NCBI RefSeq assembly: GCF_907164845.1
Contig: NZ_OU015430.1
Coordinates: 496,001 to 560,000 of the forward strand
Source: Lysobacter luteus
GTDB taxonomy: Bacteria; Pseudomonadota; Gammaproteobacteria; Xanthomonadales; Xanthomonadaceae
Direction of reading: 5' to 3'
DNA length: 64,000 nucleotides
Positions 8,497 to 30,218 of this stretch are shown piece by piece (the stretch's first letter is position 1; every line of letters starts with the position of its first letter). The notes beneath the pieces were generated by a model. The model ran no database searches. It was given only the letters and a program-made list of their open reading frames with translations, and was not told where the DNA came from. The position numbers and the translations under genes are program-made.

Positions 8497-8538
8497 TTGA
8501 TGTGAATCATGGGCGCGCTGCTTCGAAGCAGCGACCAT
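8497..8538 (+). promoter_or_regulatory. Anr-type promoter of the CopD-like gene, leaderless
   Basis: TTGATGTGAATCAT (8497-8510) differs from the FNR consensus at one outer base. GACCAT at 8533-8538 is the -10, 29.5 bp from the box centre, so transcription should begin exactly at ATG 8545. The in-frame ATG at 8509 lies inside the box and cannot be on this transcript. Confidence 0.7.
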
Positions 8539-8544
8539 GCCTCC

Positions 8545-8994
8545 ATGCCGACGATCGCCTACCCGTACCTGTTGCTCCTGCACCTGTCCGGTGCGATCGC
8601 GTTCGGCGGCACCGTTTTCTTCGAGGTGCTGATCCTGGAAGGCGTCCGCCGGCGCGTGCCGGCGCGGGTGATGACACTGGTCGAAGGCGGGATCGGCGTG
8701 CGCGCGCGGCAGGTGATCCCGTGGGTGCTGCTGGTGCTGTACGGCAGCGGCGCCGGCCTGGCGTGGCACCACCGGGCCGCACTTGCGCACCCGCTGCAAG
8801 GCAGCTTCGGCCTGCTGCTGACGCTCAAGATCACCCTGGCGCTCAGCGTGTTCGGCCACTTCCTGCTGGCGATGGCGCTGCGGCGGCGCGGCCGGTTGGT
8901 GTCGAACGTGTTCCGGAACATCCATCTGAGCGTCTTCGCGCACGTGGTCGGCATCGTGCTGCTGGCCAAGGCGATGTTCTACCTGCAGTGGTGA
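8545..8994 (+). CDS. CopD-like four-helix membrane protein
   Basis: 149 residues with four predicted membrane helices: LLLLHLSGAIAFGGTVFFEV, VIPWVLLVLYGSGAGLAW, LLLTLKITLALSVFGHFLL and LSVFAHVVGIVLLAKAMFYL. Conserved-looking His residues lie in LLHLSG, FGHFL and FAHVVG. The arrangement resembles CopD/DUF2269-type proteins, some linked to copper or haem; assignment to a family is tentative. I chose ATG 8545 because the earlier ATG (8509) is inside the regulatory box and transcription is predicted to begin at 8545. It is probably an anaerobically expressed membrane protein of the denitrification set. Confidence 0.75.
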   Translation: MPTIAYPYLLLLHLSGAIAFGGTVFFEVLILEGVRRRVPARVMTLVEGGIGVRARQVIPWVLLVLYGSGAGLAWHHRAALAHPLQGSFGLLLTLKITLALSVFGHFLLAMALRRRGRLVSNVFRNIHLSVFAHVVGIVLLAKAMFYLQW

Positions 8995-9011
8995 CCCGAC
9001 CTGCGGCCTGG

Positions 9012-9053
9012 CTGATCCAGGTCAATGGCGTGCGTGCGGGCGGGCGTCATCCT
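9012..9053 (+). promoter_or_regulatory. Anr-type promoter of the DUF2249 gene
   Basis: CTGATCCAGGTCAA (9012-9025) plus CATCCT (9048-9053) at the standard 29.5 bp spacing. Predicted start about 9060, a 21-base leader containing CAGGCAGG before ATG 9081. Confidence 0.7.
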
Positions 9054-9080
9054 GCGGGCCTCCCAACAGGCAGGTCCACC

Positions 9081-9380
9081 ATGAGCGCGATTACCCCGCT
9101 GACGATCCAGGTCCACCCCTTCGATGCCCGCGGCATCGGCAAGCGCTTCCGCCACGCCGCCATCTTCGGCGCGCTCGAGGCGCTGCGTCCCGGCGAGGCG
9201 ATGCGCTTCGTCAACGACCACGACCCGCTTCCGCTGCTGGGCCAGCTGCGCGAGCGCTACGGCGACCAGGTCTCGATCGAGTACCGCCAGCGCGAGCCGG
9301 GCGCCATCGTGATCGATTTCGCGGTGACCGGCGTCGCCGGCGACGAAGGCGGTTGCGGTTGCGGTAGCGGCGGCTGCTGA
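9081..9380 (+). CDS. DUF2249 protein with Cys-Gly-rich tail
   Basis: 99 residues. The core matches the DUF2249 fold (TusA/SirA-like): QVHPFDARGIGKRFRHAAIF, ALRPGEAMRFVNDHDPLPLL and YRQREPGAIVIDF. DUF2249 genes commonly sit in denitrification clusters; their biochemical role is not established. Unusually, the protein ends in GGCGCGSGGC, three cysteines in eight residues, which could bind a metal. It has its own Anr-type promoter and a 9-bp perfect hairpin 21 bp after its stop. Confidence 0.82.
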   Translation: MSAITPLTIQVHPFDARGIGKRFRHAAIFGALEALRPGEAMRFVNDHDPLPLLGQLRERYGDQVSIEYRQREPGAIVIDFAVTGVAGDEGGCGCGSGGC

Positions 9381-9400
9381 GTCCCGTGCGGTAACGGCAT

Positions 9401-9422
9401 CCGGACGACGCCTGTCGTCCGG
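9401..9422. terminator. Perfect 9-bp hairpin between convergent genes
   Basis: CCGGACGAC-gcct-GTCGTCCGG lies between the convergent DUF2249 and ubiV stops. There is no U-tract on either side, so it is terminator-like rather than a classical intrinsic terminator. Confidence 0.5.
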
Positions 9423-28241: not shown

Positions 28242-28663
28242 CCATGGCCTGGTGGACTGCCCTTGCGGGTGGCGTGCTGATCGGCCTGTCGGCGACGTTG
28301 CTGTTGTGGCTCAACGGCCGGGTGGCCGGGGTCAGCGGCATTATCGGCGGGGTGGTGTTCCGGGTCCGCGGCGACGTCGCGTGGCGGGCCGCGTTCCTGG
28401 TCGGGCTGGTGCTCGCCGCCGGGTTGTACATGGCGCTGGTACCCGGCGCCCCGCAGCCGCGTGCCGGCTTCCCACCGCTGGCGCTTGTGGCCGCGGGCCT
28501 GCTGGTCGGCTTCGGCACGAGCATGGGCAACGGCTGTACCAGCGGCCACGGCGTGTGCGGCATCGGCCGGTTGTCCACGCGCTCCATCGTGGCGGTCGTG
28601 ACCTTCATGGCCACTGCCGTCGCAACCACCTTCGTCGTGCACCACCTCGGGAGCTGGACATGA
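28238..28663 (+). CDS. YeeE/YedE (TsuA-like) family membrane protein, first half
   Basis: 141 residues, four predicted helices. GTSMGNGCTSGHGVCGIGRL is the YeeE/YedE signature with the cysteines that bind thiosulfate-like sulfur species in TsuA. The start overlaps the MBL stop by 4 bp and its own stop overlaps the next half-transporter by 4 bp. The pair likely acts together in moving a sulfur anion. Confidence 0.9.
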   Translation: MTMAWWTALAGGVLIGLSATLLLWLNGRVAGVSGIIGGVVFRVRGDVAWRAAFLVGLVLAAGLYMALVPGAPQPRAGFPPLALVAAGLLVGFGTSMGNGCTSGHGVCGIGRLSTRSIVAVVTFMATAVATTFVVHHLGSWT

Positions 28664-29076
28664 AGAAGTTCACCTTCGCCGCGCTGGCGTCCGGCGCACT
28701 GTTCGGGCTTGGCCTGGCGATGTCGGGCATGACCGACGCCCGCATCATCCTCGGCTTCCTCGACGTGGCCGGCGAGTTCGACCCGACGCTGCTGTTCGTG
28801 CTCGGTGGCGCGGTGATGACGACGCTGGTGCTGTTCCGGCCAGTCCTGCGGCGGGGTAGCCCGTTGCTGGCCGATTCGTTCCGGGTGCCCGGTGTCACCA
28901 GGGTGGATCGCAGGCTGCTGGGCGGCGCCGCGCTGTTCGGCATCGGCTGGGGAATCGCCGGCTACTGTCCGGGCCCGGCGCTGGCCGGGCTGGGCGTGGG
29001 TTCCACCGAAGCGCTCTGGTTCGTGCCGTCGATGCTCGGGGGCTTGCTGCTGTACCGGCTGGTCAACCGCCCCTGA
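28660..29076 (+). CDS. YeeE/YedE family membrane protein, second half
   Basis: 138 residues, four predicted helices. GALFGLGLAMSGMTD and GIGWGIAGYCPGPALAGLG (with the conserved Cys) are typical of the second YedE half. It overlaps the preceding half by 4 bp. About 80 bp of intergenic sequence, containing an orphan Anr-type palindrome, separates it from the convergent L,D-transpeptidase gene. Confidence 0.9.
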   Translation: MKKFTFAALASGALFGLGLAMSGMTDARIILGFLDVAGEFDPTLLFVLGGAVMTTLVLFRPVLRRGSPLLADSFRVPGVTRVDRRLLGGAALFGIGWGIAGYCPGPALAGLGVGSTEALWFVPSMLGGLLLYRLVNRP

Positions 29077-29127
29077 CCGGGGCGGCACTGCCTCACGGGT
29101 TGGCGGGCAGCACGATGTGGCCTTGTA

Positions 29128-29141
29128 TTGACGGAGATCAA
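29128..29141. promoter_or_regulatory. Orphan Anr-type palindrome between convergent genes
   Basis: TTGACGGAGATCAA matches TTGAC-N4-ATCAA perfectly. It lies between two gene ends, with no start codon nearby on either strand and no NANNNT hexamer at the spacing used elsewhere. It may be a relic, a decoy, or the promoter of an antisense RNA. Confidence 0.45.
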
Positions 29142-29159
29142 GTTCCGCGGCGTGGGGAT

Positions 29160-30173
29160 TCAGCGTTCGTCCGTGCCAGGCTGGTCGCTGGTGAGCACCT
29201 GTTCGGATGGAAGCGTCGGTGAGTTCAACGGTCCATCCGTGATCACCAGCGTGCTGCCCGGGCGCAACTGGCTCCTGACCAGCTCTGCGAAGTGGGGTGG
29301 AACCGCGATGCGCCCGGATTCGACCGCCTCGCGGATCGTCGTATCCGGCACCGCCGCCGGAGAGGCATAGACCGACAGCCAGCGCGGCGCGACGCCCGCC
29401 CGCGCTTCCGCTCCGGGCTCGCTGCCGTTGGTGTCGAGTACGACATAGGCTCGGGTGCCCGTGGCCGGAGGGTCGTCGAGCATGACCGCGGCGCGGCCGA
29501 TCTCCACCGCGTTGCGCCGGACTACGACAGCGCTGTCGGCGAGGCTGAGCACTACGGTCAGAGGACCCACCGGAGCGCGTTCCGGCGACCATGAAAAGCC
29601 GGACGGAGCCGCCTGGCCAGCCACATCCATCCCGGAAGCCGCCAGGACCCCCGGCGCCGCGGCCGCCGAGGGTGGCGTGCCGCCTTCCGCGATCACCACT
29701 ACGGTGCCTACGCGGGTCTGACCGAACAGGATTTCAGCGAAACCGTGGGGCAGTCTCACGCACCCGTGGGAAGCGGGGTGACCCGGGAGGGAACCTGCAT
29801 GCAGCGCCAAGCCGTCCCACGACAACCGCTGCATGAAGGGCATCGGGGCATCGTCGTAAAGGTTGGAAAAGTGCTCGCGGCGCTTTTGCAGAATGGTGTA
29901 AACCCCCGGCGGCGTCTGGTGACCGGCCTTGCCGGTGCTGACCGTCGACACCCCGATGCGAACCCCGTCGCTGTAGACATAGGCGCGTTGGGCGGAGAGG
30001 CTGATGAACACCACCAGCGGCCCGACGGGCGTCTGCTGCGGACTCCATTGGAACTCGCCGGGTTGCAGGCCGTCGCTTCCCGCTACGGATGCTGGTAAAG
30101 GCACGGCGGCATTGGCCACCAGCGTAGCGAGCAGTAGCAGGAGGGTCGGCAGGAGTGGGAAGCGCATCATCAT
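29160..30173 (-). CDS. Exported L,D-transpeptidase (YkuD) with a second degenerate domain
   Basis: 337 residues from ATG 30173; three ATGs stand in a row (30173, 30170, 30167) and transcription is predicted to begin at 30170. A signal peptide (RFPLLPTLLLLLATLVANAA) leads into a YkuD domain: AYVYSDGVRIGVSTVSTGK, TPPGVYTILQK and the catalytic HPASHGCVRLP. It would crosslink peptidoglycan in the periplasm. The C-terminal third repeats the domain's opening (FSWSPERAPVGPLTVVLSL versus FQWSPQQTPVGPLVVFISL) but has no HGC site. The frame is open for 100 more residues upstream without sense. Confidence 0.88.
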   Translation of the reverse strand: MMMRFPLLPTLLLLLATLVANAAVPLPASVAGSDGLQPGEFQWSPQQTPVGPLVVFISLSAQRAYVYSDGVRIGVSTVSTGKAGHQTPPGVYTILQKRREHFSNLYDDAPMPFMQRLSWDGLALHAGSLPGHPASHGCVRLPHGFAEILFGQTRVGTVVVIAEGGTPPSAAAAPGVLAASGMDVAGQAAPSGFSWSPERAPVGPLTVVLSLADSAVVVRRNAVEIGRAAVMLDDPPATGTRAYVVLDTNGSEPGAEARAGVAPRWLSVYASPAAVPDTTIREAVESGRIAVPPHFAELVRSQLRPGSTLVITDGPLNSPTLPSEQVLTSDQPGTDER

Positions 30174-30176
30174 TGC

Positions 30177-30218
30177 AGCATGCACCTGACTACCGACGCA
30201 TGGCTTGACGTCGATCAA
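30177..30218 (-). promoter_or_regulatory. Anr-type promoter of the L,D-transpeptidase gene, leaderless
   Basis: TTGACGTCGATCAA (30205-30218), a perfect TTGAC-N4-ATCAA. On the minus strand CATGCT (30182..30177) lies 29.5 bp from the centre and transcription would start at 30170, the second of three ATGs. On the plus strand CACAGT (30240-30245) lies 28.5 bp away and would drive the decayed gene downstream. Confidence 0.68.

Follow-up and report, generated by a model that had tools for sequence, protein, structure and literature searches.

Predicted leaderless messages at Anr/FNR promoters of hemN and nnrS in Lysobacter luteus and its family

At class II promoters of the FNR/Anr type the regulator binds a box centred at -41.5 from the transcription start, and the genes behind such promoters are usually leadered. 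Leaderless mRNAs, with the ATG at or near the 5' end and no ribosome site, are described from mycobacteria, Bradyrhizobium and Magnetospirillum, usually as scattered genome-wide sets of unclear purpose, and a start-site map of Xanthomonas reportedly includes them as well. In B. japonicum, 320 start sites lie 0-10 bases before start codons (PMC4842269), and about 5% are leaderless in M. gryphiswaldense (PMC9549626). A further likeness is offered by FnrS of Neisseria gonorrhoeae, which has its FNR box at -41.5 and whose transcript begins with AUG (PMC3032703); FnrS, however, is a 108-base small RNA, whereas hemN and nnrS, the subject of this work, are conserved protein genes. A literature search, conducted mostly without full texts, found no report of leaderless protein genes controlled by FNR or Anr. 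Here we analyse a window of 64,000 bases from Lysobacter luteus (C1:496001-560000 of a single-contig genome of 2.77 Mb; the GC fraction of the window is 0.70), in which hemN and nnrS lie behind Anr/FNR boxes. These promoters resemble the class II type in their box consensus, in the spacing from box to -10 element and in the presence of FNR-type regulators in the genome, and differ in that the ATG stands at the predicted +1, the usual layout being that of the regulon's leadered genes. The leaderless sets named above were mapped genome-wide, whereas here the layout is gene-specific, is found behind one kind of regulator box, is kept across one family, and has predicted 5' ends. We judge it quite probable that hemN and nnrS, and with less assurance a CopD-like gene and an L,D-transpeptidase gene, have Anr/FNR promoters whose +1 falls within 2 bases of the ATG, and that their mRNAs are leaderless.

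Boxes were searched for as the palindrome TTGAY-N4-RTCAA, and distances were taken from the box centre to the first base of the start codon. The genome holds 14 perfect boxes compared with 2 per strand for the reversed control pattern; hence, the boxes exceed chance. It also holds FNR-type regulators, predicted to be of the [4Fe-4S] type from their cysteines: HTH_Crp_2 matches were found at 21202-21426 of the window and at 481915-482139 of the genome, and both proteins show the pattern CxxCx5C. The second of these genes, at genome position 481915, lies outside the window. An earlier sequence-only reading of this DNA had placed the ATG at 41.5 for hemN, the CopD-like gene and the L,D-transpeptidase gene, at 42.5 for nnrS and at 43.5 for ubiT, and the recomputed distances were the same. 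The boxes of hemN and the L,D-transpeptidase gene are perfect, and those of nnrS, the CopD-like gene and ubiT have one mismatch each. That reading also held that the -10 element ends 6-7 bases before each ATG, which agrees with the hexamers at +29.5..+34.5 from the box centre of hemN (TAGCCT), the CopD-like gene (GACCAT), the L,D-transpeptidase gene (CATGCT) and nnrS (CACCCT), but fails for ubiT because its hexamer, GCACGA, lacks the final T.

Comparison with related genomes bore out a conserved box-to-ATG distance. With the family taken as Lysobacteraceae, hemN was found in 189 of the 247 family genomes searched, and 92 loci were followed: the 30 best-scoring, 2 from a search of the class, 20 hand-picked for genus spread and 40 hand-picked further down, a few genomes being included twice. 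A locus was counted in range if any in-frame start fell there, by an identical rule inside and outside the family. On this rule hemN starts at 40.5-44.5 from the box centre in 90 of the 92 loci, with ATG in 89 and GTG in one. In an overlapping set of named loci, the best 80 of 588, a box is present in 74 and the start lies at 40.5-43.5 in 72; loci in range include records named Lysobacter, Luteimonas, Pseudoxanthomonas, Thermomonas, Stenotrophomonas, Xanthomonas and Arenimonas. A Shine-Dalgarno 4-mer just upstream of hemN was seen in none of the 52 family loci tested. The spacing hardly changes even though the stretch from box to -10 differs in sequence. A crowded upstream neighbour might have accounted for this, since the hemN box in the window overlaps the end of a globin open reading frame (ORF); however, the nearest upstream coding-like ORF of 62 named loci ends 40 to 5,892 bases away while the spacing stays constant, and so crowding is not the explanation. 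As for a longer protein, no other in-frame start precedes the conserved PRYTSYP motif in 46 of the 72 named loci, and an in-frame stop separates box and ATG in the window and in 20 of the 72, an upstream start remaining conceivable in the others.

For nnrS, norB, the L,D-transpeptidase gene and ubiT the family counts rest on the best-scoring 30 loci each, from matches in 119 family genomes numbering 68, 62, 54 and 30, respectively, with 12 for the CopD-like gene. A box precedes nnrS in 22 of its 30 loci, and the start is an ATG at 41.5-43.5 in all 22; two additional family loci met in the class-wide search start at 41.5. By contrast, norB, boxed in 29 of 30 loci, starts at 58.5-66.5 (one at 78.5) and never at 40-45, and 28 of the 29 boxed loci have a match of at least 4 bases to the Shine-Dalgarno core. 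All 29 likewise have ATG as their start codon, so that an AUG start does not separate the two classes. Behind the box, an A at +30.5 and a T at +34.5 are common to the hemN, nnrS and norB family sets, and if +1 is set at +41.5 the -10 element occupies -12 to -7 in all three. Since the element stands at the same place, only the position of the ATG moves: in hemN and nnrS the signature lies 22 bases behind the box with the ATG 5-9 (mostly 6-7) bases past it, a register kept family-wide, while in norB the same box and -10 are followed by an ATG 17-25 bases further on (37 in one locus). hemN and nnrS, whose ATG stands at the predicted +1, form a natural pair with the neighbouring norB, which combines the same promoter with a leader; an exchange of about 20 bases would put the effect of leader loss on expression directly to the test.

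The two layout classes proposed by the sequence-only reading were also recovered without regard to gene, as ATG distances cluster in two groups. Behind the boxes of named loci totalling 1.27 Mb there are 95 coding-like ATGs at 40.5-44.5 (a group dominated by hemN), 10 at 45.5-56.5 and 60 at 57.5-66.5. The same scan gave a long tail beyond 67 and a smaller peak at 33.5 (14 ATGs), which was rejected as a set of gene starts, for it coincides with an ATG inside -10 elements of the norB type, often in frame with norB. Across the 119 family genomes, a box followed after 34-35 bases by ATG occurs 204 times, versus 88 times for a spacing of 24-25.

Outside the family the picture differs. The class search found hemN in 137 of 229 genomes, 3 of them from the family, and 87 non-family loci were read (27 best-scoring and 60 hand-picked from further down): 53 lack a box close to the start, 1 is unreadable, 4 are at the leaderless distance and 29 start further away, mostly at 60-71. 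The longer distance is therefore found in 29 of the 33 boxed loci, and L328, one of the four in range, offers a further candidate start at 104.5. The -10 signature of the non-family loci is at the same position, though weaker (26 loci). Similarly, among 20 non-family nnrS loci, 8 have a box with a start, at 43.5 in 2 (one genus) and at 60.5-70.5 in 6. As distances are mostly longer outside the family for both genes, we infer that hemN and nnrS were leadered ancestrally and that Lysobacteraceae shed these leaders early and have stayed without them; it is this gene-matched outgroup that points to a change in the family. In one non-family hemN locus, L300, the start lies at 93.5 behind AGGAGG and a further ATG stands right behind the -10, a layout that looks like a relic or precursor of the leaderless one.

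With box, -10 element and ATG in register across the family, norB leadered and the outgroup mostly so, the hemN and nnrS messages are very likely leaderless, as a fixed trait of the family. An FNR-type protein would bind at -41.5 and recruit RNA polymerase (class II activation), the RNA would begin at the A of the ATG or 1-2 bases earlier, and ribosomes, probably 70S, would start at the 5'-terminal AUG without Shine-Dalgarno pairing. The placing of the +1 agrees with Dinoroseobacter shibae, where mapped start sites follow predicted FNR/Dnr boxes at distances of 39.5, 41.5 and 43.5 (PMC5398030). In Mycobacterium marinum, leaders of 0-3 bases are translated well and those of 4 or more are not (PMC8022548); the predicted leaders of hemN (0) and nnrS (0-1) in the window would belong to the first range, those of ubiT loci at 46.5 to the second. 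The likeliest consequence would be that helper proteins of low abundance are made in modest amounts, independently of a ribosome site, while genes of high output, norB among them, keep their leaders; no special mode of translation under anoxia need be assumed. In M. smegmatis, leaderless genes are enriched in cofactor biosynthesis and expressed below genes with a ribosome site (PMC6448022), a pattern that would fit hemN, if only as a parallel. The FNR-type regulator gene at 21178..21942 likely shares a message with hemN, and a relative of it lies directly behind hemN in 48 of the 70 named loci with enough sequence; the predicted leaderless message would then carry the regulator as well.

Several observations weigh against the leaderless reading. 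One family hemN locus (L406) starts at 61.5 with a ribosome site and one (L427) has no box; among the 80 named loci, L241, on a contig as long as that of L406, starts at 61.5, L250 starts at 65.5, and six have no box. Another in-frame start lies ahead of the PRYTSYP motif in 26 of the 72 named loci, and the rule accepts any in-frame start in the range, inside and outside the family alike. Family loci share ancestry and are not independent events; the counts may reflect one early change per gene. Eight of the 30 nnrS loci lack a box of their own, and nnrS there sits, by eye, behind the end of another reading frame. The 12 CopD-like loci divide evenly into those that start at 41.5-42.5, those whose boxes lie at other distances and those without a box, 4 of each. 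Given the D. shibae distances, the predicted +1 is uncertain by about 2 bases; if the real start were displaced by 2-3 bases from the canonical position, the result would be a short leader or a cut ATG. Finally, the gonococcal FnrS RNA introduced above starts with AUG but is untranslated in a fusion (PMC3032703), which means that geometry alone is no proof of translation.

The same D. shibae variation of 39.5-43.5 (PMC5398030), together with the predicted nature of the 5' ends here, would leave room for transcripts that are leadered after all, with the true start further upstream and the box serving as a repressor site or acting from another spacing. We consider this very unlikely, given that genes of both the leaderless and the leadered type have their -10 signature at the class II position, that the hemN and nnrS distances are near-constant over a variable box-to--10 sequence, and that no ribosome-site 4-mer was found in the 52 hemN loci. 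The sequence-only reading had gone on to propose that two classes within one regulon imply selective translation under anoxia or nitrosative stress. In such a scheme altered ribosomes or initiation factors would favour messages with a 5' AUG and so prioritise hemN and nnrS. The layout is indeed gene-specific and held family-wide, and a review mentions (p)ppGpp-dependent leaderless translation reported to rise in E. coli under oxidative stress (PMC9031893). Nevertheless, the proposal is unsupported, and in our view improbable, because the same promoter type stands at leader-length distances from norB and other genes and because leaderless-type promoters also precede genes outside the regulon, one of them DNA polymerase I-like by sequence reading; moreover, the fraction of M. 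marinum primary start sites that are leaderless was nearly constant, 39.8% in normoxia and 38.4% in hypoxia (PMC8022548).

Those promoters bear equally on a different account, which shares the prediction of leaderless messages and departs from ours only on purpose: leaderless promoters would be widespread in the family, and the Anr genes would have joined them by chance early on and remained there because no selection acted in either direction. In the named loci L177-L256, with gene starts taken roughly as the first ATG of coding-like frames, TANNNT at -12 precedes 3.6% of 580 starts without an Anr box, versus 0-0.5% at other offsets; the genes concerned are diverse, although one gene supplies 5 of the 24 rows, and leaderless promoters seem to be common in the family. 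A single ancestral transition per gene could, in addition, account for all the family counts. Against chance stand the register, which 90 of 92 hemN loci keep although the sequence in between has diverged, the change of both hemN and nnrS within the same family, and the presence of TANNNT at -13/-12 in 31% of 128 starts with an Anr box, though many of these are hemN. A neutral origin is a real possibility, if not the one we would choose. At the other extreme, Lysobacteraceae might have sorted one oxygen-sensing regulon into two translation classes by ATG position, with the regulator operon itself leaderless, so that the oxygen switch could be rebuilt independently of ribosome sites when canonical initiation falls; this idea is speculative and rather unlikely.

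Table 1. Features of the window that are discussed in the text. Distances run from the box centre to the start codon; DUF2249, fdxA, azu and CopD-like are labels of the sequence-only reading.
Feature	Position	Strand	Details
Anr/FNR box of hemN	23388..23401	-	TTGACGACGGTCAA; overlaps end of upstream globin-domain ORF (23398-23820)
Predicted -10 of hemN	23360..23365	-	TAGCCT; position kept in relatives
hemN (Radical_SAM + HemN_C)	21950..23353	-	ATG +41.5 from box centre 23394.5; predicted leaderless
FNR-type regulator gene	21178..21942	-	HTH_Crp_2 match; cysteines CSTCAFSQAC; 7 bases past hemN stop
Anr/FNR box of nnrS	18573..18586	-	CTGACCTGGATCAA, 1 mismatch
Predicted -10 of nnrS	18545..18550	-	CACCCT
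nnrS (Pfam NnrS)	17308..18537	-	ATG +42.5 from box centre 18579.5; predicted leader 0-1 base
Anr/FNR box of norB (leadered control)	21051..21064	-	
norB	18647..20995	-	ATG +62.5; predicted leader 21 bases; GGAG ends 7 bases before ATG
Anr/FNR box of CopD-like gene	8497..8510	+	TTGATGTGAATCAT, 1 mismatch
CopD-like gene (no Pfam match)	8545..8994	+	ATG +41.5 from box centre 8503.5
Anr/FNR box of L,D-transpeptidase gene	30205..30218	-	TTGATCGACGTCAA
L,D-transpeptidase gene (YkuD)	29160..30170	-	Middle of three ATGs +41.5 from box centre 30211.5; signal-peptide-like N-terminus (by eye)
Box upstream of ubiT, inside chorismate-mutase/SCP2 frame	3384..3397	+	CTGACCTGGATCAA, 1 mismatch
ubiT part (SCP2) of frame 3080-3958	3434..3958	+	Internal ATG +43.5 from box centre 3390.5
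Box of leadered gene (DUF2249)	9012..9025	+	Gene start 9081, distance 62.5
Box between two leadered genes	24451..24464	.	fdxA start 24527 (+), 69.5; azu start 24384 (-), 73.5

The leaderless layout that the sequence-only reading had claimed for five genes (Table 1) stands strongly for hemN and nnrS, moderately for the CopD-like gene, whose relatives are split, and the L,D-transpeptidase gene, and weakly for ubiT. For the CopD-like and L,D-transpeptidase genes it is plausible. The latter starts at 41.5-42.5 in 4 of its 30 loci, with boxes elsewhere in 2 and none in 24, and its other in-frame ATGs in the window are at 38.5 and 44.5. The case of ubiT was downgraded to a weak candidate: a box is present in 14 of 30 loci, with the start at 43.5 in 4, at 46.5 in 8 and otherwise in 2, and leaders of at least 4 bases are poorly translated in M. 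marinum (PMC8022548). In the window ubiT shares one open frame, 3080-3958 (+), with a chorismate mutase type II domain (CM_2 then SCP2). The frame runs without a stop for 93 to 1,248 bases ahead of ubiT in every one of the 30 family loci, and 12 have a box and an in-frame ATG at 43.5 or 46.5, as if both a CM_2-SCP2 fusion and UbiT alone could be made.

Leadered genes at the same kind of promoter, mostly with a ribosome site, were found as the sequence-only reading had described: distances in the window span 60.5-75.5, with a Shine-Dalgarno match in 6 of 8. Besides the genes in Table 1, such starts include a gene at 2877 (62.5) and ubiU (60.5; this label, too, is from that reading). A core match of at least 4 bases precedes norB, DUF2249, the gene at 2877, ubiU, fdxA and azu, and none of that length precedes a FabA-like gene (75.5) or a UbiD-like gene (62.5), both labelled by sequence reading. 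The FabA-like start, at 6619, has a perfect Anr box 75.5 bases ahead of it (6537-6550, +). No start at 45-59 behind the window boxes was convincing by eye; a doubtful GTG frame at 46.5 (box 29128) and a 124-codon frame at 41.5 (box 2685) were left out of the window list.

Elsewhere in the genome, a third perfect box with an ATG at 41.5 (1471335-1471385, L011) was rejected as an Anr gene, since the frame behind it looks metal-linked by reading and several genomes contain an almost identical copy of the stretch. These 50 promoter-like bases, with TAAGCT and ATG following an FNR-like palindrome, probably answer to another regulator.

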